Source of the DNA: Diadema setosum
Lineage: Eukaryota > Echinodermata > Echinoidea > Diadematoida > Diadematidae
DNA: 64,000 bases
Direction of reading: 5' to 3'
Assembly (NCBI RefSeq): GCF_964275005.1
Contig: NC_092688.1
Coordinates: 24,206,940 to 24,270,939, forward strand
The notes under the pieces are model-generated. The model was not told the origin of the DNA, ran no database searches, and saw only the letters and a list, made by a program, of their open reading frames with translations. Shown here piece by piece: positions 4,311 through 62,135 of the stretch (position 1 is the stretch's first letter; each line of letters begins with the position of its first letter). Made by a program: the position numbers and the translations under genes.

Positions 4311-5285
4311 ATAAATCAGTATCACCAATTCTACTTGTAATATTACATCGTTGATGGTTTGCCTAGTGTTGAAATAAAGCCACGTGCTTCTGTTACAGAC
4401 ACGCGAGCTTTGTATTTGGATACAAGTAGCGGGGACAAACAAGGTGTAACAGATTTTCAAATGTTGTATACAATGAATAAACTTCCTTCTGTTTCCAAAA
4501 TTCATTGACTAGCTATGGTAAGGAATTTTGTGAACAACAGGAAGTCAAGAGTGGGTTCGTGTGCCTTTGATATCGCCACAATACGAGATTTACTTGGCGT
4601 GTCTTACAGTCGTGTAAATGGAAATACGCAAGCCTGTACACAATCCTCCGATCGATCGCTTTTCATTGAAAGACTTTGAAGGCTTGTGATCAACGGATTA
4701 CAGTTTCCATAAAAGATTGCCTCCATGAATCAGTAAATTCAAGACAATTATGTAGTAGAAATTTGCGACACCCTCGACATAGCCTGGTGCCCAATAATAA
4801 AAGACGCTATTCATTTGAGTTGACGAGGGAACGTAAATTGACGATCGTATAGTACGTGAAGTTCAAACCGCGCGCGCGAACCCAGATAGCGAAGGGAAGC
4901 GACATTATTATTCATGAGCGGTCGTTATTCATCCAATCAGAAAGCGGATTCCTACACCGCATACACGGCAATTTGATGATTGGGTAAAGCGGGACCGTAA
5001 GTCACACCCCCTTAGTAACCCTCGGTTCGGGCTCGATTTTGGAAAACCTGTCCGTCTGTGGGGGTGTTCGCTCGCCAAAGCAAACCGTCCTAAACGGGTT
5101 AATTCTATTTGTATTGAACTTCTTCTACAATTTATGTCGTCGATCATTAATTCGGTTATTCTGTTTTGTTTTTTGTTTTTTTTTTGTTAGGTTTGTTGGT
5201 TTCTGGTTTCTTTTAAATTGATAATACGTAATGATTGTACATTATGTTCATTCAAATACTAGTAGACATATAACAGAGCACTTAC
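4311..5285. other. Intergenic or intronic, no gene seen
   Basis: Mostly AT-rich, with a GC-richer patch at about 4,860-5,100 (CG-rich 'accgcgcgcgcgaacc'). From about 5,105 the sequence is shared with 28,345 onward as part of a large duplication. This should be intron downstream of the gene-1 SRCR-like exon. The expected WSC-like exon of gene 1 was looked for and not found, so it lies further left or is lost. Confidence 0.4.
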
Positions 5286-5504
5286 CTTGAGATGAGCATG
5301 ATACGCGTTGAGTTCTGGTTCGTGTTGCCAAGCTTGGCGTAGGCTCAGGCGAATACTCCTCTGCCGCTGGGAAGCCTAGTTCTCCATACACCAATTCGGC
5401 AGCTTTTGCGGTAAATCCTTCATAACAGGCATAGCTGCCTGACTCCAGGACCTTTAAGCCCTCCAGAGGAGAGGCCCCGTTAACCAGTTGCACATAGGGC
5501 ATTT
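5286..5504 (-). CDS. Gene 1, SRCR-like domain exon
   Basis: A 219-nt exon read on the minus strand: acceptor after 'actcccaag', donor CAAG|GTAAGT. It starts with two bases and ends with one (phase 1-1). The 72 whole codons read VQLVNGASPLEG, then ACYEGFTAKAAELVYGELGFPAAEEYSPEP and VSCSS. This follows the scavenger-receptor Cys-rich pattern (VRLV.G.SP.EG, .VC.DGF...A.VVC.QLGFP.A, V.CSG). The usual second cysteine (VVC) is Tyr, and the C-terminal third of a normal roughly 100-residue SRCR is not encoded here, so the domain is divergent or partial. Its paralogue at 28,501-28,719 has the same length and only about ten differences. SRCR domains are extracellular ligand-binding modules common in innate immune receptors. 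The preceding gene-1 exon ends in phase 1, compatible with this start. Confidence 0.72.
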
Positions 5505-6880
5505 CTTGGGAGTGAATATCACAAATATGTTAATATGCATTGATGTGGAACGCTCATCGTACTTTCATATGCAGTAAATTTTTAGCATTTTGTTCCAAAT
5601 CTAATCGGTGTTGAAAAGAGAATCGGAACTTACAGCAGTATGCATTTCTTAGCAATGAAATCAGTTTCCTTGCATTGCTATGCTAAACGAGATAATCTAC
5701 TTAGTTTTCAGATGCACTCTAAGAAATAAAACAAAAAAGTAAAGATATACTTCAATCGATTTCCAACTGAACAAAAAACTTTGGCAACCTCCCATCAGAA
5801 TTACCGATTTCATATAGCCAAAATAACACCAAAGCATCACACCAAAACTATAGCGTCATATTGACATTTGACGTATTTGATGATTAATGATGCCCGTGAC
5901 ATAGTGTTACCCGTCACCGTCACCCTTTGAAATACATCATCATTCTCCAGTAATTTTGGTAATTATATCGCCTCGGATTTCCCAGTGGACGAGGGTGTCA
6001 TAATTCAGGAACATATCTCATGCAGGTGGTGGAAGTGTGAAAAGTGATATTTTCCTTTCTATAAAAATCATCGAGAGGAAATTGAATTTTTCTAACCATT
6101 GTTTCTCTCTTTGTCTCTTATTTCTCCTTTTTTTTTAAGAAAAGGAAACATGTCCGCATTCCAAATTTTCCAATATTATATCTTGGGGATTTCGCTTTGA
6201 TTTAATTTGAGAAAAGATACACAAAGACGTTCTGAAGGCCAAAATGATAGCACCACTGTCATCGCGATGTCATGAGATTTACCACCCAAAAAAAAAAAAC
6301 CGACAAAAAAGAAACAAAAAATAAAAATAAAAACGTAAACCCTCCTGGACTCACCCAGAGCAGGCAATGTAAATGTGACAATCGTTCGCACCGCACATCT
6401 CTATACGTATTGCCGGACGAGTTGCAAAAAACCCGTATTTGAACAGTGGAAATGTATTGTATTACTGACTTCGGTGATGCTCTTTGTACTAAAGTATATT
6501 CATATACATTATATCTTAGGAAGAATGATTATGAGTCATCTCAACTACAAGATCACAATCAACATATTGTGCATATGGGGAAGAGGCTTGACTGTTTTCA
6601 CGTTTGTCTTTAAAACTGTTGCGCGATAAAGAGAAAGATGGTAGTCATTTTTTTTCGCATTGTCACTTTTAATATACCGACTCTCATTTTTGCCAAATGA
6701 GTGGTGTTCGTTGCCCGAAGTGAAAAAAAAAAAACTCCAAAGTTCTTATTTCCCCACTATGAAGGCATACTTATGATAAAAGAAAAACAAACAAAACCTG
6801 CCAACTCACAAAATGTACCTTCCAAATAGGAAGAAAAATCTGAAAGCATAATATTGTATAACAAGCGATTAAATACTTAC
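5505..6880 (-). other. Gene 1 intron
   Basis: Sequence between the ectodomain exon and the SRCR-like exon. It contains poly-A/poly-T runs (6,290-6,315; 6,725-6,734) and matches 28,720-29,189 plus 39,246-40,051 of copy 2. The site equivalent to 5,989-5,996 is where the 10-kb transposon pile entered the other copy. No exon was recognised. Confidence 0.6.
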
Positions 6881-14836: not shown

Positions 14837-14890
14837 CCAATGTTTAATAATTATTGGACAAACAGGCAAACAAAGACGATAATGGAATCT

Positions 14891-17685: not shown

Positions 17686-18414
17686 TTAGTGTGGAGTAAT
17701 GTTACCCGCACCTTCTTCAAGAACAAGATAGTCATGTTCACCCACCTCGAACTTTTCGTTTGCTTTTTCTTGGTAAATAGATGTAGAATATGATGAATCC
17801 GTCAAGCCTGTTGCAAGAGGGACACGTTCTTCATTACTCTCGATATACATATACTCGGGTAGAGATTGCGGTTCTTGTATTGTCTCGGGCTGGTCTGGAG
17901 CAATTTTACCAGGATTGTCTTCAAGAACAAGATAGCCATGTTCATCCACCTCGGGCTTTTCGTTTGCTTTGTCTGAGTTGATAGATGTACAATATGATGG
18001 ATCCGTCAAGCTTGTTGCAAGAGGGACATGTCCTCCACTACTCTCAATATACATATACTCGGAGAGAGACTGTGGTTCTTCCATTGTCTCGGGCTGGTCT
18101 GCAGCAATTTTTCCGGCATTTTCTTCAAGAACAAGATAGCCACGTTCATCCACCTCTGGCTCTTCGCTTGCTTTGTCTAAGTAGATAGATGTAGAATATG
18201 ATAGATCCGTCACGTCTGCTGCAAGAAGGACACCTTCATTACTTTCGATATACATATACTCAGGGGGAGACTGTGGTTCTTTTACTGTCTCGTATCGGTC
18301 TGGAGTAATTTTACCGGCATTTTCTTCATGAACAAGATTGCCATGTTCATCCACCTCGGGCTTTTCGCTCGGTTTTTCTGGATAGATAGATGTAGAATAT
18401 GATGGATCTGTCAA
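17686..18414 (-). pseudogene. Gene 2, middle block of tyrosine-rich tail repeats
   Basis: An open frame of 242 codons with four repeat units of about 68 residues. The core motifs are DERGYLVLEE, DEHGYLVLED, EYMYIES, PLATSLTDPSYCTSI and TDSSYSTSIY. It is in the reading register of the array but is cut off from the upstream tail exon by a stop and a microsatellite-driven shift at 18,452-18,515, and it ends in a stop at 17,686. The units are very similar at DNA level to those of gene 3. It would lie in the cytoplasm if translated. Splicing that skips the damaged unit is possible but no good splice pair was seen. Confidence 0.65.
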
Positions 18415-18451
18415 GCTTGTTGAAAGAAGGACGCTGTCTTTATTACTCTCA

Positions 18452-18474
18452 ATATATATATATATATATATATA
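18452..18474. repeat. (TA)n microsatellite grown from Tyr-Ile codons
   Basis: The tail repeat normally encodes EYMYI as TATATGTATAT. Here that stretch is a pure run of about 11 TA units, which lengthens the codons for Tyr-Ile and shifts frame. Other units at the same place (for example 57,514-57,530) show shorter, mostly in-frame TA runs. Confidence 0.85.
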
Positions 18475-18510
18475 CTCGGTTAGAGATTGCGGTTCTAGTA
18501 TTGGCTCGGG

Positions 18511-19143
18511 CTAGTCTGGATAAATTTTACCAGGATTTTCTTCAAGAACGAGATAGCCATGTTCATCAACCTCTGTTTTTTCGCTTGATTTACCAGAGTA
18601 CATAGATATTGCATATAATGGATTCATGGGAGGGCGATGTTTTTCATAAGTACCAATTTCCATGTATTCGGGGCATGACTGCAGTTCTTGAATAGTGTCG
18701 GATTGATCTGGAGTAAATTTACCTGCATTTTCTTCGAGAACGAGATAATCGAGTTCATCAACATCGGGCTTTTCGCTTGGTTTGCCTGAGTAGATGAAGG
18801 TGGAGTATAATGGGTCATGAGGGCTCATTGCGAAATGGACTAGGTTTTCATTACTGCCATTATGCGTGTCCTCTTTGCATGAATATGGAATATTGATGGT
18901 TTCTGATTGATCCGAAGTAATTTCGTTGGTTTTCGCTTCGAGCACTATACAACCATTCTCATCTCCTTCGAGCTTTTCTCTTGATATGGTTGAGTAGATG
19001 GCTGTAGAATACAATGGATCATTGATGTCCATTTCAATTGCGCCGATATACTTGTCTTCCTCTTCTCGTGGTTTGCTGGAGCAGGCGGATGCAGATCTTT
19101 GAACATCCCTCTTGCTACCCATGTCCCTTACATGATCGTGGTC
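18511..19143 (-). CDS. Gene 2, proximal cytoplasmic tail exon
   Basis: Acceptor cctttacag at 19,144 opens a frame of 210 codons, from DHDHVRDMGSKRDVQRSASA to GKIYPD and a stop at 18,511. It has a basic/Ser-rich start, then three repeat units with NDPLYSTAIY, GCIVLEA, HDPLYSTFIY, LDYLVLEE, CPEYMEI and DEHGYLVLEE. Tyrosines in YxxL/I settings suggest SH2-binding sites after phosphorylation. The stop replaces what is usually CAG (Gln) in other units and ends the tail early compared with gene 3. It starts in phase 0, and the matching donor of the membrane exon is not settled. It may still give a short-tailed receptor, or be part of a pseudogene. Confidence 0.6.
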   Translation of the reverse strand, partial: DHDHVRDMGSKRDVQRSASACSSKPREEEDKYIGAIEMDINDPLYSTAIYSTISREKLEGDENGCIVLEAKTNEITSDQSETINIPYSCKEDTHNGSNENLVHFAMSPHDPLYSTFIYSGKPSEKPDVDELDYLVLEENAGKFTPDQSDTIQELQSCPEYMEIGTYEKHRPPMNPLYAISMYSGKSSEKTEVDEHGYLVLEENPGKIYPD

Positions 19144-19251
19144 CTGTAAAGGTGAATAGAGCACATGGGCAAACGTTGATCGTTACCATCTGATTCACTC
19201 TACCATCTCTCCAGACACGTGTCTAAACAAATAGGAATATACATTGCAAGC

Positions 19252-24434: not shown

Positions 24435-26349
24435 CTAAAAAATAATTAATACAAAGGAAGACATGCAAATCTGTGGCATGGTATGATAGGCAAGTACCCA
24501 GTTTGATACTCACGCTGACTCATGAATCTCAACGACTAAGAATAACAAGTTAATTCAGCATCTGCCTTTGCTATAATACATTGTACTTTCTCGTTTACAG
24601 TTCAGGAGTAAAGCATATAGCATAATACTCGCAATTCACGCAAAGCGGCTCAAAACCGAATGCAAATATTGTAGATTATTTTAAAAATGATGATAAGTAA
24701 TATAGATCAATTTCATATTACTAGAGTGTTCCAGTACACGATGCCATTTGACTGTTAGGGAAATCGTAGCATCATTGGCTAGCATACATGAAAAGAAAAT
24801 AAGAACATTAAGTCTCAAGATAAAGATTATCATTCCATGTTATATTTCTTAAGAATCGCTTTTGAAAAATAATGAAATTTGAAATTTAGAATGTAGGCCT
24901 ACTGATGTCAACTATCTTTTGTTTACAATAATCTTTGCCAAATTAAAGAAAATAACAAACTAGGAATAGAAAATCCTTATAACAAGGTACCTTGAAACCA
25001 TCCTCATCCTGACCATTTTCATATTTATTGAGTACAAAACACCAATGATATCCCAAAGTACCAATGCTAACATCGATCGTGTTGATATTTATCCATGCTA
25101 TGTTTCCAGTCTCTTGCTGTTGATAGTGATTTCGATGTACATTTTTTAAGCATAATTATTGATTATGCTCAGTATTGGCTCAGAGTACAAATACACCATT
25201 TGCATTCAATTTTGTAAAAACTTTACACTAAAAAATATACACATACACGCACAGAGCAGAGGGTATCTCTTCATCTACCACCGACCATTTGATTCAATTG
25301 CGACAACTCGGCAAGACGCGAATGGCGGATTCCATTGCGGAAAGTAAGTCGACCAAATGGGTAGTTCCTTACACTGCAACGATGCGGGATCGTGCTGGAT
25401 TAATGACGTAACCTTCACCGCACCTTACACTGCAATGATGCGGGATCATGCTGCATTAATGACGTAACCTTCACCGCAGGTGAGAGTTATGTTGGACCCA
25501 TATGTCGTGCTATTTGTGATCCATGACCATTCGTCACAGGACTAGGGTAATCACAATACCCAACAGATACTTCAAATCATATAGGAAAACAGAAAAGCCA
25601 ATCAAAGTAATTATATAGATACAGTAATTAAAAAAGGGTTGTGCACATCATGAAAGAACTTGTATCGTCTGTTAAAGACCTCTTTACATTGCCTAAAGAC
25701 CATCATGACGGCTGTTGAAGAGGTGAATGAATCATATCAATAAACAGGTAATATCAACCTGGATATTGTGAAATAATGTTATGTTTTGACTGTACCTCTC
25801 AAGACCATTCGTGTCATGGCATTCAACATCATAAAACGTGTGAAGAAAAATGATAAAAATACGAAGACAAATGATCCTCGGTCACAAAACTCCACAAAAT
25901 TTCCCCCTGTTTTCCAGTAGAACTTACAATTCAGAAAAGCAAGAACAATAGGCAACCCTCTTTCTAATCAAACTCAGTTTTTGTTGACACTTTTGTATTT
26001 TTTTTTCCATACTCCTTCCGAGGTGTTTGAAAATGAGCTTACAATTCCGGTAGTCGTCATTAAAGCAGTTGGCCGAAGCTGATAAAATTTGTAATAACGT
26101 GAGTAACCTTGTGTTTTGATATATTTAACATAATCTGTTTTCATTACTTTTTTGGCGGGAACCTTCCATCCTATTAAGGGCCATTTCAAAGCTCAAAATA
26201 GGAACCCCTTTTAGAATGCGATTGTGATCATATATCTCGGGATATTTTTCTTGGGATTTTGCAGGTTCACTTTTGTCTATTGTGCTTCCTGTTCTTATCA
26301 TTGTATAAATAATATTGCGGGTTTCTTTCTCTTTTAAACTCATACTCAC
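24435..26349 (-). other. Gene 2 intron, with one small tandem repeat
   Basis: No exon recognised. At 25,367-25,478 there are two direct copies of a 56-bp unit (ccttacactgcaaYgatgcg). The remainder is AT-rich single-copy-looking sequence. Confidence 0.5.
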
Positions 26350-26611
26350 TGTTGAATGAATAATGATATAGGTTGTGCCTGGCTGGGACATGTCCAGTTG
26401 CTCGAAAAACTTCCATCAGAAATCAAATCGGCATACGATTTTGTTTGCAAACAAACACAAAACCCACGATGTATGACAGCAACCCCATTGCTTCTCGGTT
26501 CTCTCCTGCAGGTAGATATACATTCCTCATCGGATTTAGATTCAGACGCATAGGCGAGCAGAATCGAAAGGGCTCTACTGTCACCTTGATAGCATCCGAG
26601 AAATCCACGCT
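26350..26611 (-). CDS. Gene 2, WSC-like domain exon
   Basis: Acceptor tttgttcttag at 26,612 in phase 1, exactly matching the phase-1 end of the SRCR-like exon upstream. It reads RGFLGCYQGDSRALSILLA, SKSDEECISTCRREPRSNGV, AVIHRGFCVCLQTKSYADL, then NWTCPSQAQPISLFIQ before donor CAACA|GTGAGT. The order GCY.D.RAL, .EC...C, G..G.FC.C and a late WxC is that of WSC domains, which are Cys-rich carbohydrate-binding modules on cell-surface proteins. Six of the usual eight Cys are visible, so this is a divergent WSC. The exon ends in phase 2. The product would be extracellular, between the SRCR-like domain and the stalk. Confidence 0.65.
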
Positions 26612-28344
26612 CTAAGAACAAACAAAATGAGAAAAGGGAGACGGTTACCTGGATAACATATTTTGATTTGTTTGTTTGTTTCTTTGTCTTTTTGCTATCA
26701 GAATTTGTATCAGACCAATCACAAGTCTATTGCCTAATATTCTGAAAATTCGTTTTACCGAGGAATCCATATTCCAGTGTATCGTTAATAAAAAAGAAAG
26801 CACAATTAAAAAGTTCAAGGACTCGAAAGCGAAATAAAGTTCGAATAACGTTGGTATTTAGTAGGTACCTTTTTCTTCTTCTGTTTTTTTTTTTTTTTTT
26901 TTTTTTCATTTCGGATGAAATCAAAGCTTCGGAATAACGAACATCACCCTTCATCCAGGCCAATCCCTGTCCCGCAAATTGTCCCCAACAAAAAGAGAGA
27001 TCCTTTAAAAGCAAATAATACAAAATAAGATCTGTTGTTCTCTAGACATTAGTTTTGTAGAAAACATGACATAGCCTATACCTGGTTATGCTGCTACTGC
27101 TATGTGTTCTTTCAATCTCCACAAATTATTCAATTATATAGTCGGTGTATACAATTTCCGTCGTATCTACATTGTACAATCTTTCAATGTGGAGGGTTGT
27201 TATTGGTTAATGAACACCATAAGCATCATGTAATATGTATAAGACATGTATTATATGCTGTCCATTGACAAAACAACAACAACAACACGTGATGCTTGCA
27301 CTGGGAGATACTTGGAGATAGAACATGTTGAATTGATAATTTTGCACAAGACGCTTGAGGTACCTTTTATATCTTGTTTTTCCTTTGTCTATGAAAATGC
27401 ACCTCTTCTGTTTATCAAATCGTTCACATTCTAAATAGGTTAAGATGGTTCAATTCACACGATATAATATATATTATCACTGTCTCATTTCAAAGGTTAG
27501 ATTTTACATTTTTATACTACAATGTAGAAAAGTGAAAATTCATCCTGGCCGCCTTTTTTGTGCTTTCTGCATATCTATAATGTAATAGCAAATTTCTCCC
27601 TCATCTGGAGCCACCCTATTTTGCAACACCTTTTGTTTTTCACTTTCTTTTTCCTCGTCAATTTTGGTTTCGAGTTATCACTGATCGGAACAGCGAATTG
27701 TATTCATCATTGTTGCTGCTAAATATGATACTATAGGCTGACCTCGGCATTTCACTCTATCAGCCATGTTGGAAGAACACTCAGCCGTTGGGCAATCCCG
27801 TAAACGCTGAAACCTGTATGAATCTGTGCATTGATGACGTAGATTTTTTTTTTTTCAACTGTTCATCTGTCCGGTCAATTCATTAGTCATGAAGCAAAAA
27901 CATCGACACAGTAATATGTGTTAGACATTTCTTTATTCTTACAACCACGAAGAATAAAGAATAGAAACAAAAATCATACAAAATGCAACGATTTATCTGT
28001 CCATTGTCAATAATATTTATCAAATCTGTCCCAATGTGCAAAAAGATTACCTTTTGAACTTTAACCTGCCTTCTATTCCCTTCATCATTTCGGAATCCTA
28101 GATTAAAAAAAAAAAAAATACGTAAGTCATGTAGGCCTAATTACATCTCTTCGGTTTTGTTTTGTTTTTTCCTCCATTTGACAGGAAATAAAACATCCCG
28201 CATGATTTGCCCTTGCCCTTGGGTAAATGTAACTGTAAAATCGATGTTCTGTGCTGCTGTACTAGCAAGATCTGAAAGATTTTCTTCATTTGGGGGCTTT
28301 TGTCAAACCAGGTCTCGAATAATCATTCGAAACTGTCATTTTAT
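26612..28344 (-). other. Gene 2 intron, nothing seen
   Basis: Intron between the WSC-like and SRCR-like exons. It contains a poly-T tract (26,885-26,906) and a CAA run near 27,272. No exon or transposon boundary was recognised. Confidence 0.5.
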
Positions 28345-28500: not shown

Positions 28501-28719
28501 CTGGAGATGAACATGATACGCGTTGAGTTCTGGTTCGTGTTGCCAAACTTGGCATAGGCTCAGGCGAATACTCCTCTGCCGCTGGGAAGCCTAGTTCTCC
28601 AAAGACCAATTCGGCAGCTTTTGCGGTAAATCCGTCATAACAGACATAGCTGCCTGACTCCAGGACCACTAAGCCTTCCAAAGGAGAGGCCCCGTTAACC
28701 AGTTGGACAGAGGGCATTT
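28501..28719 (-). CDS. Gene 2, SRCR-like domain exon
   Basis: A 219-nt exon, phase 1-1, acceptor after acttccaag and donor CTCCAG|GTACGT. It reads VQLVNGASPLEGLVVLESGS, YVCYDGFTAKAAELVFGELG, FPAAEEYSPEP and VSCSS. SRCR signature positions are kept (EG, VC.DGF, A..V..ELGFPAA, V.CSS). Phe replaces the usual VVC cysteine and the C-terminal third is missing, as in gene 1. Joined to 26,611 it gives SS-P-E-RGFLGCYQG without a frame change, which is the best evidence that SRCR-like and WSC-like modules belong to one protein. This exon looks undamaged although the exon before it is not. Confidence 0.72.
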
Positions 28720-29429
28720 CTTGGAAGTGAATATTACAAATGTTTTAATATGCATTGATGTGGAACGCTCACTTTTATATGCAGTAAATTTTATCATTTG
28801 TTCCCAATCGGTGTTGAAAAGAGAATCGGAACTTATGCATTTCTAAACAATGAAACCATGTTTCTTGCATTGCTATGCCGAACGCGATAATCTTTCTGGT
28901 TTTCAGATGCACTCTAAGAAATAAGACAAAAAGTGAAGATATACTTCAGTCGATTTCCAACTGAACAAAAAACTTTGTCAACCTCCCATCAAAATTAACA
29001 ATTACATATAGCCAAAATAACCGAGCATCACACCAACATTATTGCGTCATACTGACATTTAACGAATTCAATGACCAATGATGCCCCTGAGATAGTATTA
29101 TCCGTGACCGTCACCCTTTGAAATACAGCATCATTCTCCAATAATTTTGGTAATCATGTCGCCTTGGATTTCCCAGTGGACGAGGGTGTGTTACGGCACA
29201 TTTTGGTAAATCGGCACATTTTAGTAAATTACCAAAATGTGCAAGTTACCAAAATGTGCCGATAGTGTACCTATACCTGACGGGATCAACTGTTACCAAA
29301 ATGTGCAGTTAAAAGTGGATTTGCCTGCACATTTTGGTAACTGCACTAAAAACCCATGGATGGGCTTGAGATTTATAATACGGTCAAGGAGTTCAGGTGG
29401 TATGGTCCTGCAGTAAAGACAGGCAAGAC

Positions 29430-41211: not shown

Positions 41212-42660
41212 TTTTCATTTGCCTTTCCAAATTGCACCAATCATCAACCAACTGTTTAGAGAAACCAAGTCTCAGCAATATGCAAGATATCTCTGAAAGC
41301 AAGAGGCCAGACAAAAGTACTTCCAATAATACGCCGAGTCCAGTCTTTTGTACCGATTGATAAGGGCTGCATGAACCACCTCTCGAGCTGTTATGGAATG
41401 GACGACCACATGGATCACATGGGGGGGGGGGTGTGACCAGTGGCGTATCTAGGGGGGGGGCAAGGGGGGCACGTGCCCCGGGCGCCACTCCTTGGGGGCG
41501 CAAAAAAAAAAACGAAAAAAAAAAACGAAGAAGAAGAAGAAAAAAAAACGAAGAAGAAGATCCCTTTTAAGTGCTTGAAAAAGCATCATGTGGACTTAAA
41601 GTCCCTACCGGGATGGGGATGGGGTTGAACACTTTTTCAGAAATTTGGGGCGCAATTTTCGTGCTTGCCCCGGGCGCCGTTTTCCCCAGATACGCCACTG
41701 GGTGTGACTCATTGCTTGTGCTTTCGTTTATATTGTACAGAAATTTCTTCGCAGCAGTTTTGCAGAAAGGTTTCGCGGCGTACTCAGGGCTGTCAGTCAT
41801 TCCTTAAATGCGTGCTAAAGACATCGCAATTTTTCAACAAACATTCAACTAGTTCAATACTAGTTTCATATCCGTTTGCAATAATTGGCTTAAAAAACGA
41901 TGGCAGGATCGTTCTTAAGGTGCCCACAGTGTAGCTACTTATCCTCCATATTTTAATTACAGGAAAACTGATATCGTTTTCGGTTTGCCGTAGTAGTTGG
42001 ATGAGAATCACTTCATTGTTGTGATATTGATGAAAATCAGCAGACCCCCCTTTTTTTGGAGTAGTGATTAATGATGATCCAAACTCTGCCTTGCCACGCT
42101 GACACTTTGCCTTTGATAATTGAGGTTGGCATTACGCATTACATCTACGACTAATTGTTTTGTCAACACAGCCGAATTATTATCATAATGTTGAAGCAAA
42201 CATGTAATAGTCTGTTTTGCTTGGACATCTTATAATGTGTGTTTTTTTCCTGTCTGGTTTTCGGTAATTGGTACGTACTGTTGTTAATGTATTATTGATC
42301 GATTTTACAAAAGTCCAAACCCCTGTACTGTTTCTTTTGCCATTTCATTGAAGGAGGATGTGCATTACACGTACCTCTTACACTTCCCCTTTCCGTACGA
42401 CACATTGACATTCCCAGCACACTTCTGAGAAAGCTACTGATTTTAATGTCAAAGGGTGTGCTCTATTGTAATTGCAGAATTACACCACTGGAACATCACC
42501 ACTTTGGTCTCTAGCTTTACTAAGTATGATGAAACTGATCAACAGCCATTTTTTGTTTTATCTACAATCTCTCTGTGTAACGATGAAGCAGTTGTAGTTT
42601 AGAAACTATCAGTGACATCACAACTTGAAGGGGATATCGATGTATCATACATTGTTTAAA
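41212..42660 (-). promoter_or_regulatory. Upstream region of gene 2 (duplicated)
   Basis: Matches 8,712-10,345 upstream of gene 1 apart from copy-specific insertions. The promoter is expected here by position. No core motif could be fixed. Confidence 0.35.
41438..41700. mobile_element. hAT-type non-autonomous element, 8-bp target duplication
   Basis: 263 bp. It starts CAGTGGCGTATCTAGGGG and ends CCCCAGATACGCCACTG, flanked by GGTGTGAC at 41,430-41,437 and 41,701-41,708. The paralogue near 8,938 has one GGTGTGAC, an exact empty site. CAGTGGCG-type ends with 8-bp duplications are hallmarks of hAT elements. The interior is A- and GAA-rich without a frame. Confidence 0.95.
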
Positions 42661-51600: not shown

Positions 51601-51748
51601 ATCCATTTCGAGTATGCTGGCTAAAGTTACCGTAACAAATTGAGCACTGTCCATTACTGTCATTCAGGTTAAAATATATTTGCCAGTCACAAGTAACACA
51701 TACATGTACAGAGTTAAAAGACATTACGTGAATAACAGAGCATAGCAT
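48686..51748 (-). CDS. LINE ORF2: endonuclease and reverse transcriptase
   Basis: 1020 codons without a break. Residues about 75-300 are an APE-type endonuclease: SICHFNCRSIKKN, VTETWL, GGGVGFYIRQ, VVYRPPA, VVGDFNVNLL, SDHLPIF. Residues about 535-800 are a reverse transcriptase: VIPVFKKGDK, NYRPISLLSV, FLDLTKAFDCIDH, GVPQGSVLGPLLFL and the catalytic LFADDTNLFF (FADD). A thumb and C-terminal region follow to WNELPIIIKESPTLSSFK. The first 70 residues (MLCSVIHVMSF..., with CSICYGNF) are of uncertain role; the true start may lie anywhere before the endonuclease. It nicks target DNA and copies the element RNA in place. The length is usual for CR1/L2-type ORF2 (900-1100). Confidence 0.93.
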   Translation of the reverse strand: MLCSVIHVMSFNSVHVCVTCDWQIYFNLNDSNGQCSICYGNFSQHTRNGYFEHNSNYYLPVQFDNSLKDLDMDNHLSICHFNCRSIKKNFDNMDTFLQNFRHQFSLIAVTETWLKTQESSLCVLPSYTFVDNRRHDKRGGGVGFYIRQDLKFKRRLDLELFDDNIETVCIEIHCQSENIIVTVVYRPPAASISQFLHAIELPFHKIMREKKSCYVVGDFNVNLLSSVSTVDAFIDQFSSYSFSPVISKPTRITTQSSTLLDNIFVNNLESIVISGIFTCDVSDHLPIFTIIRCNYNSNIEGNRFRRVFDDSSIQFFCNMLYNCNWEYVVNMHNVDDQFEAFLARYLLFYNKCFPLQTCVHRVKRNDKPWFNSTLRKMCKKKYLFYRKYLRNRTATNEQKFKQYRNLVNKEIRKRKREFYHRKFSSVRGNLKKTWSFINDVMNKQRQNNHIESLQVNDHFIDSAESVATHFNEYFCAIGRNIVSEVSNSSASVYTYLRNTYSQSMFFKPITIPEMLTIVNDLKVNKSPGDDDIHVNVFKKSICFIMEPLCAIFNSSLETGIFPRQLKVAKVIPVFKKGDKHQLQNYRPISLLSVFAKLFEKLVYARLISFIDSNNILYHQQFGFRHGYSTYMALLKLMERISNAYENHEFLVGIFLDLTKAFDCIDHRILIMKLEYYGIRGNVLNWFKSYLSNRTQYTVVNNTKSELCHVNTGVPQGSVLGPLLFLIFVNDLQFASPYLYSILFADDTNLFFSGRDVHEVNNMINSEMQKVYSWFTANRLVLNIDKTCYMVFKTKNKVIDEDVLQIYIGNVKIKQVNRVKFLGVTIDDGLTWKGHFDDICIKISRIVGVMNYLKHIFPLKILLTMYHTMISPHLTYCAIIWGHSSLYLLNRVLMLQKRAIRILCNVNPYTHTAVLFKKLKILKIDQIVQLQVATFMFSYFKGVLPVTFHNSFTPNSAIHAYNTRRANEICLPFYRYKFSKTTIRYTGAKCWNELPIIIKESPTLSSFKRKYKMFLIQSAIE

Positions 51749-52025
51749 AAATATAAAAGAACTAAAAATGTAAAAGCACGAAATTTATTGCACGGGTGAT
51801 GCCTGGAGAATTTAAAACATTTCATATTCCAACAGTATGCTAAAAAAAATAATAATAATAATCTAGTGTGGTGACGGACTCTATGTACAATTTAAAAGAA
51901 TTTACCTGTGTACAGTATACTTCCAACTAAACATAGCTACAATCTATCCAGATCATTCTTGTTGTGGATCTGCTTTCGCAACGTCTTTCCTCCAGTGGTT
52001 TTGACTGAGACCAGGATTCTTCCAT

Positions 52026-52492: not shown

Positions 52493-53639
52493 CAGCATTT
52501 TGATTATGTGGTAACGTATCTGTCGGAAAACTTGGCATTAAGTTGTGATACACTGACGCAGAAAGAAAAACCATGTGGAAGTGTTGCTCTTTTTCACCTC
52601 TCTGTCCTTTTGGTGTAAGAATATAATCCTGAGGTTTAACAAAACGAAGCATGTAATTTGTAGGGATGAATTTTGACCAGATTTGATCCCCAGAAAGCAC
52701 AAGACCAATGCGCAAAATTCGGTCACGTATCTGGGGTAACGTATCTGTGGTAACGTATATGGTCGATCATATTATTATGAGAGCGATAACTACCAAATAT
52801 TTCTCACTTGTACTAAACTTTAATGTTGAATCGATGCGTCATTCCGAGGAGTAATGTATAATATACAATTTGTCTGACACTGCAATATCTGTCGCAGTGG
52901 GTGGCGTGAAAAGTATGTCACGTATCTGTCCAAATAAAAGTGTAGAAAACCGATATTTCAAACATTGTACCGTATTCTCAATAAAGAGCTGTTGCACAAA
53001 AAAATCTAAGTACTTGCAATGTATGAAGTATATCCTCAAGGTTTCATATACACAGGGTCATTGCATAGTCTTGTTATTTTCGCAAAGCTGTAACACTAAA
53101 GAAACTGGTAACGTATCTGGAAGTGAACTTGGCGACAGGTTTCAAAAGGCTATAGAAAAAAGAAGTCAATAAAAATTTTGGAACTTTTTGAGTATTGTGA
53201 TTAGCACATATGATATGCTCATCATCCATGAAAATAGTATTTGGAAAGTGTGTTTGTGGACGGAGAGGAGCAATAAAACATAATTCTGAAATAGCCGGCG
53301 ACACTGCGTTTTGGGGGTCTTAACGAAGTTTAACAGCAAAATTTTATACAAAAAGGCAGACAACCGCATTTGATCGTGTTTATTTTTAACATATAACGTC
53401 CTCGTGATATATTATAAACATTTAAATAGTATCTAATAGGTTTCAGGGAACCGCAAACTGTCATGGAATGTCGGCGACACCAACATTCCGTATTTGAACG
53501 CTTTTACTGAGAATGGGCCATATATGATATTTCATATAATTTATAAAATATCATATCATATAAGATATATTATGTTGTTTGTGTGTGCTTACACTTATTG
53601 CTGTAAAAGAAGGCATTGTTTTGTCTCCATCTTCCTACG

Positions 53640-55870
53640 TTCTCCGTAGATAACATAGAAAAAACTCTTTGTTCATAGTCATGTACTGACATTGAAGAAA
53701 AGAGTCCTTGATTATTTTTTTGATATACTAGTAGACTATTTTGAGCACCAACTTTGTATATCAAAGTTATTTACTTGAGAACACTGACATTTTTTTGTAA
53801 TCATGGGAATGCACTTGAACCACACGATTTGTAGCCGTACTGACACACTTTCCCCGAAGTTGTCGACATTTGCTAATGTTTGTGTTTGTTTGGTTTCCTT
53901 GATTAAAGAGTGAATCACACGCACGTTCATACATGTAATTCAGTTCCACACCGCAATGTACGAAGATGTGTTCGTACTATTCACTTGCACGATGATACAT
54001 GTACTTTGTATGTGTATGTGTGAACAATGTGTTTGTAACGCACTACAATGTAAGTCTTTGATTTTTTTTTTTTGAGTAGAAACGTTAAAAGAACACTCTT
54101 GAATAATTCATGGGAGGAGACGAAAAATCATTGACCTTTTTTTTAATGATTTATTTGCCTTGATGAAACGTTGACAAACCCAATGTTTGCCAATTATTGG
54201 ACAAGCAGGCAAACTAAGACGATACAAACATTTTGGTAGGAGAAAACGGGCAAGGGAAGAAAGGGAAGATACGAAGTATCGTAAAATAAACATTAATACA
54301 CGTTTTTAAGGAACCCCCAAAATATGAAAATTGGATTCTATTCTGAATCTAACTTACAGTGACTTAAGAATTGAAATGACAAGTTGATAATATCATTATA
54401 CACTGTACACTATTCTAACTTGAGGAAGTCTATTTTTCTTCAAAAGATTTAAAAGTATATACTGGATCACTTTCCATTATAATATATGCTGCAGTATCTT
54501 TTTATAAAGGAGCATTTGTTGCTTTTGAACACATCACCTTTATGACAGACTTCTAAAGTGAATTACTATAGTAAAAAATAACAATCGGGTCACAAAAGGA
54601 AAGTGGATAGAGATGAAAAGAAGAAAAGAATGGCATGAAAAAGAGAGAAAATGCACTTGAAAAGGAATCAACAATGTGAGAGTTAATCTAAATATCTAAT
54701 ATTCATATTAACAACATTTTTTAAAGATTTTCAACAACGGACTGTTCATGATTATTATCAAATAAATATCAAGCAACATTTGTTCAGTGCCATTTCAGAA
54801 GGAATCCAGTATGTGGTTCTGATATACTCTGTGTAGGACAACATTGGAAAATGTGCTAATCTACTGCATTTTTCCATTAATACTTTATGAGTCTCTCTAT
54901 GATTTCAGCATGCACGCAATCATCATGCTGCGAGACTCTTGCCTCCACAAATGTGTATTGGATATCAACATGTCATAGTATAGAGATAAACAAAAGATAT
55001 CAGTCACAAAGGACAATATTTTTTTTTTATAGATTATTGACCTGTCCTACAGAGATCACAAGTTTGATACAAAAATACCTTACTGACAAATCAGAACTGT
55101 CTTCTAATAATTATGAATTCAAATAAGAGAAATCATCTCTTTCGCATGAAATTCTAGATTTAATATATCAGTCAGCAATTATGACGAAAAAGGGACATTT
55201 CAGGACTGTATAATACAGACGAAGATGACAAATGTCTTTTATCTACTGATGCAAATTAGTGGTATCACAACAAAAAAGCACAATCACGTCGCATTAATTG
55301 CAGCTCATTCATAAACTCGTCTATTATTTCTTCTACAAACATCTCGCATAATTTACGATTGATTAGATATCGTGACCCATAGATTCATGGAAACATGTAT
55401 AACTCGAAATGCTATAATTTTATTCACTGAAATGAACATTGAAATGTACCCCTCTGTCGATATCATAGTTTGGTAAGCGACAAACTGAGAAGAAACGTTC
55501 GTCCGAAGATGGTACGACGACAGCATGAATGAAAAATTTAGTAGTAACTGTACAGTTTTTCTATAATGTTAATCAGTTGTTGCTTATTCCTTTTTGTTAC
55601 CGTCAGTGCACTCTACCGTGTGTATTTATTTCTTTCCTCTTGAATTTCAACATCGGGAGATGGATCAATCTTAGGATTTTTGAATTTAACACAAAGTAAT
55701 TGCGTTTGATTCGTCAATTTGAGGACTTGATACTTCAGGCCATTTCAGGCCATATTTCAATGCATGGGACCATTATCTTCAATTATTAATTAAGCATTTA
55801 TGCGGTTACAGCTATTACTTTATTGTACAGACAACACGGTAGATCAAAGAACATTATAGTGAATTCTCCG
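53640..55870. repeat. Segmental duplication, 3' flank of gene 3
   Basis: Same orientation match to 12,800-17,100 near gene 2, starting at 'tccgtagataacata' and including 'gaaacgtt.aaagaacact' and 'ggtacgacgaca.catgaa'. It lacks five insertions present in the other copy and so preserves the empty sites. No gene was seen. Confidence 0.85.
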
Positions 55871-56680
55871 TTAAGAGAACGCTCCTGTGACATTAACAAT
55901 GTTCATCCACCTCGGGTTTTCCGCTTTTTCTTTTTGCATGAGTATAGGCATATAAGTCTTTCTGCTCGACACAAGATGAAAACTTCTCATTTCTGTCTGC
56001 GTAATATTATACATGTACATGGGGTATGATTGCGGTTCTATCTCTGTAAAAGAAAAAAAAATCGAGTTAAAATATTCACTCTTGAAGGAGTGAGTACAAA
56101 AATAGAGTGAATTTAGAGTAAAATTGGTGTGAATTTGTTCTAGAGTGACCTCAGGGATCACTCCAAATTCTTCGAGTGATCCCTGACGTCACTCCAAAAT
56201 CAGTGAAAATGAACATTTCTACTTAAAATTCATTCCAATTTCACTCTAAATTACTTTTTTTTATTCACTCCTTTAAGAGTGAATATTTTCACTCGATTTT
56301 TTTTTTAAGAGTAGGATTGTCTCAGAAAGGTCTGGAGTTATTTTACTGGCATTTGATTTGAGAACGATTGATAGGCATGTTAATTTATCCACCTCGGACT
56401 TTTCGCTTGCTTTGCCTCAGTAGATACGTAGATGGATCATTCAGGCTTGTCGCAAGGGGGACATGTTTTGCGTTACTCTTAATAATCATGTACTTGGGCC
56501 CTCGGGGAGACACGGCGGTTCTTAAATTGTGTAGGATTCTTCTGGAGTAATAAAGATATCTAGATATTCATGTTCATCGACCTCGGGTTTTTCGCTTGGT
56601 TTGCCTGAGAAGATAGATGTATAACAATTATGATGGACCCGTCGCGCTTGTTGCAAGACAGTGCATGAGGGACAAGTTTG
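55871..56680 (-). pseudogene. Gene 3, decayed distal tail repeats
   Basis: Broken pieces of the tail repeat (QSYPMYMYN, NPRWMNIVN, and minus-strand traces of YLVL/PEYMYI units) in different frames, interrupted at 56,052-56,306 by a hairpin element. Homologous to 17,108-17,685. Beyond the likely ancestral stop after EYMYIDTEQ at 56,681. Confidence 0.65.
56052..56306. mobile_element. Near-perfect foldback (hairpin) element
   Basis: AAAAAAAATCGAGT, then AAAATATTCACTC, is mirrored by GAGTGAATATTTTCACTCGA at the right. The arms continue through GAGTGA..., GGGATCACTCCAAATTC and its inverse with a 4-nt turn (TTCG) at the centre. It lies in decayed tail repeats of gene 3; the homologous place in gene 2 (about 17,310) lacks it. 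Confidence 0.85.
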
Positions 56681-56929
56681 TCATTGCTCTGTGTCTATAT
56701 ACATATACTCAGGGAGAGACTGCGGTTCTTCTATCGTCTCGTATTGATCTGGAGTAATTTTACTGGCATTTTCTTCAAGAACGAGATAGCCATGTTCATC
56801 AACCTCGGGGTTTTCGCTTGATTTGTCTGAGTAGATAGATGCAGAATATGATAGATCCGTCAAGCCTGTTGCAAGAGGGACACCTTCTTCACTACTCTCG
56901 ATATACAAATACTCAGGGAGAGACTGCGG
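56681..56929 (-). pseudogene. Gene 3, last tail repeat beyond the stop
   Basis: In the same frame as the tail exon and directly after its stop: PQSLPEYIEY-type start, MYIESSEEGVPLATGL, LSYSASIYSDKSSE, VDEHGYLVLEENASK, YETIEEPQSLPEYMYI and DTEQ with a stop. The stop at 56,930 is TAA where other units have GAA (Glu), so one substitution removed this unit from the protein. It contains the clearest YxxI-x8-YxxI pair of the array. Confidence 0.7.
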
Positions 56930-58907
56930 TTATTCTATTGTCTCGTATTGGTCTGGAGTAACTTTACTAGCATCTACTTTAAGAACGAGATAGCCATGTT
57001 CATCAACCTCTGGCTTTTTGCTTGCTTTGTCTGAGTAGATAGATGTAGAATATGATAGATCCGTCAAGCCTGTTGCCAGATGGACACCTTCTTCATTACT
57101 CTCGGTATACATATACTCAGGGAGAGACTGCGGTTCTTCTTTAGATATTGTCTCGTATTGGTCTGGAGTAATTTTGCTGGCATCTTCTTCCAGAACGAGA
57201 TATCCATGTTCATCCACCCCTGGCTTTTCGCTTGGTTTGCTTGAGTACATAGATTTAGTAAATGATGAATCCGTCAAGCTTGTTGCAAGAGGGACACGCT
57301 CTTCATTACTCTCGATATACATATATTCGGATAAAGACTTCGGTTCATGGATTGTCTTGGGCTGGTCTGGAGTGATTTTGCCTGCATCTTCTTCAAGAAC
57401 GAGATAGCCATGTTCATCCACCCCTGGCTTTTCGCTTGCTTTGTCTGAGCAGATAGATGTAGAATATGATGGATCGGTCAAGCTTGTTGCAAGAGGGACA
57501 CCTTCTTCATTACTCTCGATATATATATACTCAGGGAGAGACTGCGGTTCTTCCATTGTCTCGTTTTGATCTGGAGTAATTTTACTGGCATTTTCTTCAA
57601 GAACGAGATAGCCATGTTCATCCACCTCGGGTTTTTCGCTTGCTTTGTCTGAGTAGATAGATGTAGAATATGAAGGATTCGTCAAACTTGTTACTAGAGG
57701 GACACATTCTTCATTACTCTCGATGTACGTGTAGTCGGGGAGAGACTGTGGTTCTTGGATTGTCTCATATTGGCCGGGAGTAATTTTGCTGGCTATTTCG
57801 TCGAGGACGAGATAGCCATGTTCATCTATATCGGACCCTTTGCTTTGTTTGGCTGTGTAGATAGATGTAGAAATTAATGTATCATTCAGATTCGTTGCAA
57901 GAGGTATATGTTTCTCATTTCTGCCTGTATACATATACTCGGGACATGACTGCGGTTCCTGGATTGTCTGAGAAAAATTGCGAGTGATTTTACCGGCATT
58001 TTCTTCGGGAACAAGATAACAATTTTCATCAAACTCTGACTTTACGCTTGGTTTCCTTCGGTAGACGGATGTAGAATACAATGGATCACTCAGACTCGTC
58101 ACAAGAGGGATATTATGTGCATTTCTACTAACCGACATGTCCTCGGGGCATGACTGCGGTTCTTGCAGTGTCTTTAATTGGTCTGGAGTAATTTTACTGG
58201 TATTTCCTTCGAGGACGAGATAGTAATGTTCATCCATCTCGGACTTTTCAATTGGTTTGCTGGAGTAGATTGATGTGGAATAAAATGGATCTTTCAGACT
58301 CGTCGCAAGAGGGGCACGCTTTTCACTTATATCGCTACACATGTACTCGGGGCAAGACTGCTGCTCTTGGAGAGAATTATGATAGCTGTCGTCAAGCAAG
58401 CATGCTCTACCAGGGGGTTTAAAGTCATCTCTCGTCAAACTGTCGTTTCTATTATCAAGGTCTACATCCTGGTAATCACACTCTTCATACACGCTCGCCA
58501 GTTGATCTAGTGATGTTTCCTGCCAGCACTGGTATCCATGGTAACCTGATGAATTCATTGCCATCATCGAAGCCGTGGTGGCACTGCCCATGTTACTGCC
58601 TACACTTATAGAGGAGGAGGTGGAATTCACTCCAGTGATTCTAGAAGGACCGTTGCGTACCTCTTCAGCGTCCTCATAGATATGATACGGGTCTTCTTGA
58701 TGATCTATGACGTCACCAAATATGTTTAACGAATGGCTGGGAATAGGTTGGCCCATCGAGTCAGTGTCAATGCTGGAATAGTCCAATAAATCAACATCAT
58801 TCGTCGTGGTTGCATTCTGGGTCGCCGTGCTTAAAGGATGCATCTGCAATTGACCGTCTTCCACGTAGTTTTTTGCCTGATTGGGCAGCCGTGATGTCCT
58901 GCGTCGT
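56930..58907 (-). CDS. Gene 3, cytoplasmic tail exon with tandem hemITAM-like repeats
   Basis: Acceptor tctcatttccgcag at 58,908; one base completes Arg with the membrane exon (phase 2), then 658 codons to a TAA at 56,930. The juxtamembrane part is basic (RRTSRLPNQAK). About 190 residues follow with tyrosines (DPYHIYEDAEE, VYEECDYQDVDL) and a Ser/Met-rich stretch. Then come seven units of about 68 residues: DEHGYLVLEE, KITPDQYETI, EPQSLPEYMYIES, PLATSLTDPSYSTSIYS. Five units keep DEHGYLVL, close to the hemITAM DEDGYxxL of CLEC-2 and Dectin-1. Likely role: a cytoplasmic scaffold that, once phosphorylated, binds many SH2 proteins such as Syk-type kinases (inference). Repeats become more uniform toward the 3' end, suggesting recent unit amplification. 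No catalytic domain. Confidence 0.75.
57514..57530. repeat. Short (TA)n within Tyr-Ile codons
   Basis: A unit of the gene-3 array encodes EYIYIES through a TATATATA run, an in-frame early stage of the microsatellite growth seen at 18,452 in gene 2. Confidence 0.7.
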
Positions 58908-59650
58908 CTGCGGAAATGAGATGAAAGATAAAAGACACAAATTTGTCAGTTTTTGACTAGTCAGTCCTTATCCTCGTAGTTTATAGCGAATGCCAGACGT
59001 TCCTTTTGTAAAGCCAAATGTAAAAAAAAAAATGCACCAAATTAAACTATCCTGCAATGCAATTGTTTGGTATAACTAAGTCTCTTTTTTATGTTCATAT
59101 TTCTAAAACCACTTTCGAGATGAGAGAGACCTTCTTATTCCTGAAGTATACAAACATTCAAGATATATCTACATACAAACAGAAATTATTCCTTTAATAT
59201 AATGTAGAGATCGAATATCATAGCGTGATATGTCATATAAACATTGACTTTACTTTAATGTACAAGACTAGAGTATCATTGCAACGTAACTCTGCTCCGC
59301 AAACAGGCCAGTATAAAGGAAATGACCTTGTCGTTCACCAACAATCACCAACTACATTACTGCCACTGTAGCCCCGTAGCGAACATGTAGCTATATGTCC
59401 TTGTTAAAAGGACAAAGATTCCATTCATGAAACTTCACATTCCCTTACATCATAAAAAAACATATATGTGACCTCTAATTTTGAAGATAAATGGGACATT
59501 TTATATTTCTCTATATCCAATTCATATTCGAGAAGCATCATAAAAAAAAAATCAAAAGCCTTTCCTTTTCTCCTACAAAACAATATTAATAACAGACAAT
59601 TACTATACTGAATAATAAAATAAGGCAAACTATTATGAAAGAAAGCACAC

Positions 59651-59765
59651 CTCTTCTGCCGACGGTTACGCCAAAGCAAGGACAGTACGGTGAGGACTAT
59701 GAGAACGACACCCACAAAGACTCCAAGAGCGTATGCTATCAGTGTCATCCCAGGCCCTCCAGAAT
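59651..59765 (-). CDS. Gene 3, transmembrane exon
   Basis: Acceptor aacatgttgcag at 59,766, donor AGAAGAG|GTGTGC; the exon enters in phase 1 and leaves in phase 2. It reads SGGPGMTLIAYALGVFVGVV, then LIVLTVLSLLWRNRRQK: about 24 hydrophobic residues followed by a strongly basic stop-transfer sequence. Joined to the tail exon it gives QK-R-RRRTSRLP without a frame change. This places the tyrosine repeats in the cytoplasm of a type I single-pass receptor. Upstream ectodomain exons of gene 3 were not found in the window. Confidence 0.75.
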
Positions 59766-60409
59766 CTGCAACATGATTGGATGGACCATTGTTATGTTGA
59801 CAATTCTGGAAGTGATGCAGCCACATTCAGGTTGTTTCTTTTTTTCTTATTTAGGAAATAGAGAATGGTTACAGTGTACGTGCCTACCAAAATTAAGCTT
59901 CATTTTTTACAAATCATTTTTACTATAATCTAGCAATTATTTTCAGTTGCTTTAATTCTAACACTTAAAAAAAAAGAAAAAAAAAAACTTTTCTGTAGGC
60001 AAGATGGAATGAATGCCAAGGCAGGGCACATTGAGTGTATTTAAATCTGCCATTCAATGTAGATAACGAAAGAAGAGAGAGAGAGAGAAAGAAAGAGAGA
60101 GCATGAACACAATGCAAACTTTAAAATGATGGTGATCATTACTGACTGATACTTAACAAGAAATGTATAAAGGTTATGGTATTTTTTTATTATGACCTCT
60201 TTCTTGGACAAATGACAATCAGTCTATCATTGAATATATTGCATGATTTTGTAATAATTAAGTTTTTTAAGCTCCATTGTAGTGGCATTCATTATGAGTT
60301 CCCTTGTGGAGACATTTATCATCATAACAATCAATATCTTATAATACTCTTTGATTTTTTAAAGATTTATTATGGCTGATTTTACAACAGTATTGTCTTG
60401 GGCAAATTA
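59766..60409. other. Gene 3 intron, no exon seen
   Basis: AT-rich with poly-A (59,968-59,990) and GA repeats (60,070-60,105). Chance frames only. Confidence 0.5.
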
Positions 60410-60701: not shown

Positions 60702-62135
60702 TGGAGGGGCACACACTACAAACAGCAACAAGGCGCAGCCATGGGCTCCCCCCTCTCACCGATCATTGCCAACATTTACATGGAACATTTCGAAAGTCAC
60801 GCACTAGCCACGGCACAGCACAAACCTTCACTCTGGCTCCGGTATGTCGACGACATCTTCACTATCTGGCCACACCAAGCAGATCAACTGGACGACTTCC
60901 TCACACACCTCAACGAACAACATTCCAACATCTCATTCACAGTGGAAACGGAACACAACCATTCTCTCCCCTTCCTCGATGTTCTCGTCGCAAAGACCAA
61001 CGCTGGCACTTTCTCTCACCAGGTCTACCGCAAACCCACTCACACTGACAGATATCTTCACTACCGCTCCTTCCATCATCCAGCAGTCCGCCAGTCAGTA
61101 CCAAACGCTCTCGTCCGACGTGCTCATCAAATCGGCGACAAAGAACATCTTCGACAAGAACTCGAACATATCACAGACACACTCACCACTATCAACCAAT
61201 ACCCTAAGCACAAAATCTACACTCAAGCACCTTCTCATCCCAACCAAGCAGCCAAGGAACAGCCCATCACAACTGTAAATCTTCCCTACCTCGGCGCCAC
61301 CTCGCACAAACTACAACGCATCTTCAAGTCCGCCAACATCCAGGTCCGTCATACATCTTCCAACAAACTTCACAATTCATTGCACTCACACAAAGACAAG
61401 CACCCCAGACACAAACAACCAGGTGTCTACCGTATCCCATGCGAATGCGGCAAAGTCTACAAAGGTGAAACAGGAAGATCGCTAGAGACTAGACTGAAAG
61501 AACACAAAACATGCTACAGACGTTCGGAATGAGAAAAGTCAGCCATCGTGAAACACGCTCAACAGTCGGAACATCGCATCAACTGGGAAGACAGCAAACT
61601 CATCACATTCATCAAAAACTGGAACACACGACGCATCAGAGAAGCCATAGAAATTCACACACACGACACTGTTACACAGGATACTGGACTCCACATCAAC
61701 AACATCTGGCTTCCTCTCATCAACAAACAATCAAACAGCAACAATGACAACAACAACACACTCTATCCACAGCACATTCCCCCCTCTACTTCTTCCTCTC
61801 ATAACTCTTCCCCCACCTCTTCACAACAGCGCCCACGACGTCAACCGCGCCTTCCACTCACGACCACACCTATCGCTGGTTCCAGAAGACGCCCTCACCG
61901 ACACAATTCATCCACACCACCGGCGTCCACCCCATCTACTAACCCGCACTCCAATCTCCAGCCACGACCTACTAACAGCCAAGTTAGCCTTCACAGATGT
62001 ACTCCGCCACCAACACACTCCAAGAACAATAGAACGCATCAACGACCACAACACTCCACCAACAGCCGACGCTCAGCCCGCCTGCGAGCCCGCCTCGACC
62101 GACCTCTTCCATCTAGGTCCGCATTCTCCATATAA
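60702..62135 (+). pseudogene. Penelope-like reverse transcriptase/GIY-YIG endonuclease, partial
   Basis: The frame enters at the truncation with QQQGAAMGSPLSPIIANIYM, the end of the reverse transcriptase palm. It has LWLRYVDDIFTIW (YVDD catalytic motif), LPFLDVLVAKT, VYRKPTHTDRYLHYRS, then the GIY-YIG-type endonuclease PGVYRIPCECGKVYKGETGR and SLETRLKEHK. An in-frame TGA at 61,530 interrupts the endonuclease; the same frame resumes with KSAIVKHAQ and NWNTRRIREAIEI. It then runs into low-complexity Asn/Ser/Pro sequence. The upstream half of reverse transcriptase is missing through 5' truncation. Family: animal Penelope-like elements with a C-terminal endonuclease. Confidence 0.9.

Follow-up and report, generated by a model that had tools for sequence, protein, structure and literature searches.

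Does the long repetitive tail encoded by gene 3 of this locus belong to an echinoderm cell-surface receptor, and could its repeats serve as multiple docking sites for signalling proteins? The question comes from a sequence-only reading of the window (the whole stretch of 64,000 nucleotides of Diadema setosum DNA considered here), in which the repeats were likened to the hemITAM of vertebrate receptors. In vertebrate examples, one hemITAM is carried per chain. The excerpted text of PMC11484026 lists CLEC-2, Dectin-1, DNGR-1 and NKp80 as hemITAM receptors and gives DEDGYxxL as the consensus. Considering the whole of the evidence, we lean towards a family of SRCR-WSC-Sushi receptors with tandem phosphotyrosine docking cassettes as the best explanation of the locus.

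The gene-3 tail and its receptor family

The tail of gene 3 is encoded on the minus strand by one open frame of 671 codons (58945-56930). As proposed from the sequence alone, a module of about 68 residues is repeated seven times. The ORF list, repeat finding and unit alignment place seven tandem units at 56933..58366 (minus strand), starting at 58366 and measuring, in order, 68, 68, 68, 68, 68, 70 and 68 residues, with a DExGYLVLE core. Tandem Repeats Finder gives 8.2 copies of period 204 over 56697-58368. The core reads exactly DEHGYLVL in five units (3-7), again as described earlier; unit 1 has DEHYYLVL and unit 2 DENCYLVP. The statement that every unit adds EYMYI and YSTSIY holds only loosely, in terms of variants: the exact motifs occur in one unit of seven (unit 6) and in three of seven (units 1, 4 and 7), respectively, and the remaining units carry variants, some of them devoid of tyrosine. 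YETI occurs in three of the seven. Pfam matches in the tail (BPL_C, ULD_2, Spt5-NGN and XkdX) are 10-38-residue bits of unrelated domains lying on repeat sequence; that to BPL_C passes the Pfam cut-off, yet it was set aside with the others.

By comparison with 500 shuffles, gene 3 contains five DExGYxxL (shuffle mean 0.00) and 13 YxxL/I (5.2 by shuffle), contrasts that are overstated because the repeat copies are not independent, so that the constraint tests given below weigh more. The strict form DEDGYxxL was absent from gene 3 and from the nine other tails scanned. Closeness to the hemITAM is therefore retained for the relaxed pattern and lost for the strict consensus. Like vertebrate hemITAM receptors, gene 3 combines an acidic-acidic-x-G-Y-x-x-L core with a single-pass receptor. 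It differs from them by H or N at the third acidic position and by the presence of five copies in one long tail, and the Diadema family has SRCR, WSC and Sushi domains and lacks a C-type lectin domain.

The receptor context is provided by P0001, a D. antillarum protein model of 1175 residues and the best match to the tail (80% identity over 97% of the query). P0001 aligns to the transmembrane exon of gene 3 (59650..59766, minus strand; SGGPGMTLIAYALGVFVGVVLIVLTVLSLLWRNRRQKR; 90% identity to P0001 residues 352-390), then to the tail ORF. The splice junction predicted between 59,651 and 58,907 is supported by fitting splice sites, AG|GT for the donor (59651) and CAG|A for the acceptor (58908/58907), and by the annotated protein model P0001, which runs across it. 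From this acceptor to the first unit, the juxtamembrane part of the tail exon (58367..58907, minus strand) is 91% identical to P0001; its stretch 58907-58378 also shows 70-80% identity to P0002, P0003, P0004, P0006, P0007 and P0008. Best identities per exon to Diadema proteins range from 88.9 to 96.9%, and the best-matching species varies from exon to exon (D. antillarum, D. setosum in the case of the transmembrane exon, or a tie).

In P0001, nine units are detected by profile search within one uninterrupted protein model. Its ectodomain belongs to the SRCR superfamily according to Pfam (SRCR, 27.6 bits for a cut-off of 26.1) and also contains a Sushi domain (30.3 bits for a cut-off of 20.7). 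Ectodomain exons of gene 3 itself were not found up to the right end of the window. The single-pass topology put forward earlier agrees with the transmembrane exon and with the P0001 model, and is consistent with the AlphaFold model of the relative P0003, in which one long helix is predicted at residues 358-392 (pLDDT 66-86 over 361-390). That model was computed with 17 sequences and has a mean pLDDT of 34.9, so that its membrane helix alone is usable; the tails may be disordered, but such low values do not prove it. The N-terminus of P0001 has no obvious signal peptide. Likely signal-peptide exons were spotted by eye, the ORFs near 41.1 and 8.6 kb having a signal-peptide-like start, MAALALLFA.

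Protein searches returned 16 proteins with the gene-3 tail, all from D. antillarum or D. setosum, 14 with the tail of P0016 and five with the P0001 array, all from Diadema. No relative beyond Diadema appeared in these searches, which rely on exact-word matching and may miss distant relatives; two of them scored only about 8000 candidates sharing most words. The invertebrate origin suggested earlier is borne out, since all 25 proteins found are from this echinoderm genus. As far as these searches reach, an array with constrained units is so far seen only in Diadema. In the accessible part of the sea urchin SRCR survey, SRCR domains are associated with Sushi and WSC partners, as in the Diadema family, and the words 'tyrosine', 'ITAM' and 'Diadema' do not occur in its main text (PMC10855680).

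Conservation of the unit and of its tyrosines

Neutral evolution of the repeats, with equal synonymous and non-synonymous change, had been named in advance as the outcome that would count against a function. For the seven units of gene 3, pooling gives an omega of 0.47 (0.34-0.66; 0/2000 bootstraps at or above 1), which argues against neutrality; here and below, intervals are column bootstraps only, because unit pairs are not independent. Omega is 0.24 over the nine DEHGYLVLE columns (0.06-0.67; 12/1988 bootstraps at or above 1) and 0.50 over the rest of the unit columns. For the four units located behind the TAG stop of a second array in the window, gene 2, it is 0.77 (0.46-1.43; 392/2000 at or above 1) and not distinguishable from 1.

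Conservation was also compared over six unit groups, weighted equally. After removal of rows aligned over less than 40 residues, they total 52 units, of which one follows the gene-3 stop and several follow that of gene 2. The DExGYLVLE block is the best preserved, with a mean entropy of 0.79 versus 1.58 overall (2/20000 permutations). Out of 65 columns, the tyrosine of GYLVL ranks 5, the two of YSTSIY 15 and 10, and the first of EYMYI 11; these four columns, chosen after the data had been seen, together give 162/20000 permutations. The second tyrosine of YMYI and that of YETI rank 60 and 56. Taken jointly, all six unit tyrosine columns show no excess conservation (3273/20000), nor, in the window's 14 units alone, do the six columns where tyrosine is commonest (permutation p 0.68).

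The idea that some units hold a full ITAM, with YETI followed by a second YxxI at x8, fared less well. Gene 3 has one pair of the YxxL/I-x6-8-YxxL/I type, at the expected spacing between units 3 and 4, and at least one pair is obtained in 45/500 shuffles; two are present in P0001 (4/500 shuffles) and none in the remaining eight tails scanned. The tyrosine of YETI is kept in 4/8 units of gene 3, 1/7 of gene 2, 4/9 of P0001, 0/6 of P0005, 0/8 of P0009 and P0010, and 0/14 single units, and is thus not conserved across the unit groups. On these two grounds, a full ITAM per unit was rejected. When the spacing is widened to 12, gene 3 has four YxxL/I pairs (0/500 shuffles), three of which are YLVL-x11-YETI. 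They share the x11 spacing of the Draper/MEGF10 ITAM, given as YXXI-X11-YXXL in the excerpt of PMC13148388, with the order of L and I swapped. However, the YETI half is unconserved, and the Draper ectodomain is of the EGF type.

Of the 25 Diadema proteins, 18 contain units according to a profile search; among them, P0012-P0025 have one full unit apiece. DExGYLVL is found in all 14 of these paralogues; 12 also contain DEDGYLL, with S or T instead of L at the +3 position. In the single-unit tails, 12 tyrosine columns reach a modal frequency of 0.96, versus 0.78 over 310 columns (0/20000 permutations), and tyrosine is the most conserved of the 20 residue types; columns with fewer than 11 of the 14 sequences were dropped, and the P0013 tail was miscut, 519 residues being kept. 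Because tyrosine is generally slow to change and the sequences are close relatives, this conservation is strong but not conclusive. The YMDM, Y[EQG]N, YHEI and YESI sites of these tails are nearly invariant. Among array relatives, P0009 has one DExGYLVL, and P0010 has none and contains Yxx[LIV] at the shuffled level (3 versus 3.2).

The omega values, the DExGYLVLE block and its presence in the 14 single-unit paralogues all point to purifying constraint on a hemITAM-like core. Judged from these alignments, the unit combines a hemITAM-like cassette with several other conserved tyrosines, the ITAM reading being unsupported, and the array is real and constrained, outside the strict-consensus hemITAM class.

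Expansion and decay at the locus

Each of the first three gene-3 units has its counterpart in the same-numbered unit of P0001 (0.82, 0.78 and 0.80; next best at most 0.63). Units 4-8 are about equally alike among themselves (0.72-0.83) and to P0001 units 4-9 (0.64-0.82). A core of three units would thus predate the split of the two genes, the rest having expanded later.

Unit 8 opens with a TAA (56930..56932, minus strand), which ends the gene-3 frame; the corresponding codon reads GAA in units 2-7 as well as in the partial unit 9, and GAG in unit 1. Beyond this stop, unit alignment shows that unit 8 is otherwise intact and stays in frame, and that 15 residues from the start of a ninth unit follow (56684..56929, minus strand). 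Unit 8 shares 0.81 identity with unit 7. Further decayed units, with several stops, are recognizable at 56276..56680 (minus strand). The TAA and the in-frame eighth unit were absent from the sequence-only reading. Since the stop precedes an intact unit and P0001 is uninterrupted, the window copy of gene 3 may be a shortened, perhaps inactive, member of an otherwise intact-looking family.

The gene-2 array (17689..19182, minus strand) comprises six units of 62-72 residues, with a partial one ahead. Unit 2 is interrupted by an in-frame TAG (18511-18513), at a position occupied by CAA or CAG in three out of four gene-2 units for which this codon was listed. Before the array, the ORF 19593-19817 (minus strand) contains a transmembrane-like segment that resembles by eye that of P0005 from D. 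setosum; tblastn with P0005 gave no match at these positions.

Exons of a neighbouring family member are also found on the minus strand. Its SRCR exon (28505..28726), 90.5% identical to P0001 residues 6-79, continues at 27741-27824. An open stretch (26349..26726) surrounds a WSC-like exon (26364-26606), which is 85% identical to P0001 residues 110-190 and has a Pfam WSC match at E=0.0014 and 19.3 bits, below the cut-off of 27.8. The Sushi exon (25287..25576) is broken by a 56-base tandem duplication with stops (25367-25478), so that this copy looks broken. A third member is represented by an SRCR exon (5284..5508, minus strand; 92% to P0001 residues 7-81), to the left of which alignment of P0001 gave no further exon within the window. 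When minus-strand ORFs are compared by blastp, two pairs of paralogous stretches emerge between the copies, 6138-9665 with 39443-42462 and 12772-16889 with 53573-55568. Reverse transcriptase ORFs occur at 31257-34688 (plus strand; 33006-34688 scanned), 48686-51784 (minus strand) and 60702-61532 (plus strand); one is gypsy-like, one LINE-like with an endonuclease and one, by eye, Penelope-like.

Possible signalling by the two tail classes

The locus belongs to a family, of Diadema type, of single-pass SRCR-WSC-Sushi receptors, and the long tails of these receptors may be proposed to act as scaffolds for phosphotyrosine docking. The array class has one cassette (DExGYLVLE, YxxI and DP-Y-x3-I-Y) multiplied in tandem. 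Clustering by ligand would most likely lead Src-family kinases to phosphorylate the tail tyrosines; the DExGYLVL sites would then recruit SH2 proteins, with Syk as the first candidate, for a presumably activating output. By raising the number of sites per receptor, the repeats would increase the gain. We regard phosphotyrosine docking by the tail as probable, and Syk specifically as a plausible but tentative choice of partner. According to the accessible parts of the sources, Src-family kinases phosphorylate the YxxL of ITAMs and hemITAMs, and Syk binds them (PMC9287148; PMC8092387, on Megf10). Excerpts also mention transcripts of Syk, Csk and Src-family kinases in the eggs of sea stars (PMC11593052) and expression of Src and Syk family kinases in the tunicate Botryllus (PMC12065747). 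A further parallel is offered by the fester co-receptors (FcoRs) of Botryllus, likewise a deuterostome invertebrate. As described in the same excerpt, they have a Sushi domain and tails with possible hemITAM, ITIM and YxxI/L/V motifs; unlike the Diadema proteins, they have Ig domains, with no SRCR mentioned and no tandem cassette array described, and ITIM or hemITAM motifs are also recorded there in candidate allorecognition genes of Hydractinia (PMC12065747). Among the matches listed from a mostly open-licence literature, no title or abstract beginning describes a tandem hemITAM-like array.

Should the cassettes indeed function in SH2 docking, the strength of an innate receptor signal would be set by repeat number, and, as this number can be changed by unequal crossing-over, the family would offer a natural dose series. 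At the sequence level, several points speak against docking: the joint behaviour of the six tyrosines is unexceptional, strict DEDGYxxL is absent, P0010 lacks the motif, gene 3 carries a stop and has no ectodomain exons that could be located within the window, and its neighbour is broken.

YxxL is also an endocytic signal, and GYxxPhi is a sorting form. The tail could hence be imagined to serve endocytic or lysosomal sorting, its YxxPhi signals (the G-preceded YLVL, YMYI and YETI) binding clathrin adaptors and multiplying scavenger-receptor uptake with phosphorylation unneeded. The scavenger-type ectodomain of P0001 would suit such a role, as would the 15 Yxx[LIV] of gene 3 (7.1 by shuffle). 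Yet the acidic D and E that precede GY and the E that follows YLVL are conserved to about the same degree as the tyrosine itself (entropies of 0.64, 0.38 and 0.78 versus 0.61), and neither the conserved tyrosines of DP-Y-x3-I-Y nor the Y[EQG]N tyrosine present in most single-unit tails fit YxxPhi, which makes sorting an unlikely main function. A general scaffold for SH2 proteins other than Syk (PI3K, Grb2 or Src-type) is suggested by the single-unit tails, with YMDM or YMEM in 13/14 and Y[EQG]N in 12/14, and by P0005, whose units read YANI and which has seven YxN versus 2.5 by shuffle (5/500). We take YMDM to be a PI3K site and YxN a Grb2 site. Gene 3, by contrast, has retained DExGYLVL, contains a single YxN and lacks YxxM, and for its tail we judge such a scaffold rather improbable.

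Finally, the repeats might have expanded in the ordinary way within a tandem cluster of genes undergoing decay, the window copies being functionless. The in-frame stops of both arrays, the decayed units, the broken Sushi exon, the retroelement ORFs close by, the late expansion of gene-3 units 4-8 and the omega behind the gene-2 stop, indistinguishable from 1, would all fit with it. An omega that stays below 1 in every bootstrap for the units of gene 3 and the existence of P0001 as one protein with nine units are at odds with this explanation, to which we give little credence. Docking by constrained cassettes stays our preferred reading of the array class.

A second tail class complicates the picture. 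P0002, P0003, P0004, P0006, P0007 and P0008, from D. antillarum and D. setosum, have an ectodomain of the SRCR-WSC-Sushi type and an unlike distal tail after residue ~568, with 4-6 ELYATV-type matches each, mostly 17 residues apart (at least one copy each was missed by the pattern in P0003 and P0004). In D. antillarum, P0001 and P0003, whose entries differ in the length of the longest contig, are nearly identical over SRCR (106/108), WSC (78/82), Sushi (79/80), stalk (79/81) and transmembrane segment (39/39), less so over the juxtamembrane part (146/178), and their distal tails are unlike. P0003 and D. setosum P0004 are 92% alike over their whole length (SRCR 100/106, WSC 76/82, Sushi 78/80, stalk 76/81, transmembrane 37/39, juxtamembrane 166/178). 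That the outer part of P0001, and not its tail, is nearer to P0003 than P0003 is to its likely counterpart P0004 indicates either a recent exchange or a joined gene model. Near-identical ectodomains on unlike tails, as seen in these annotated models, recall the vertebrate paired receptors described in the excerpt of PMC3533184, which belong to other protein families.

It is tempting, if doubtful, to imagine that Diadema has paired SRCR-WSC-Sushi receptors, where an expandable activating hemITAM-like array would be opposed by a 17-residue ELYATV array with ITIM-like motifs damping the signal, copy exchange keeping the ectodomains alike and repeat number tuning the gain. Two such tail classes on nearly the same ectodomain would allow testing of an independent origin of paired activating and inhibitory receptors outside vertebrates. 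ITIM-pattern counts give only a hint of opposite signalling. Three of the six second-class tails were scanned, and each has four matches versus 0.7-0.8 by shuffle (0, 5 and 2/500 shuffles), when P0001 and gene 3 have 1-2 versus 2.1-2.7. The array protein P0005, with three versus 1.0 (38/500), goes against an opposite-signalling split. The ELYATV sites, with E at -2, are not ITIMs, and one of the four ITIM matches, LDYSSI, is juxtamembrane and common to P0001 and gene 3.
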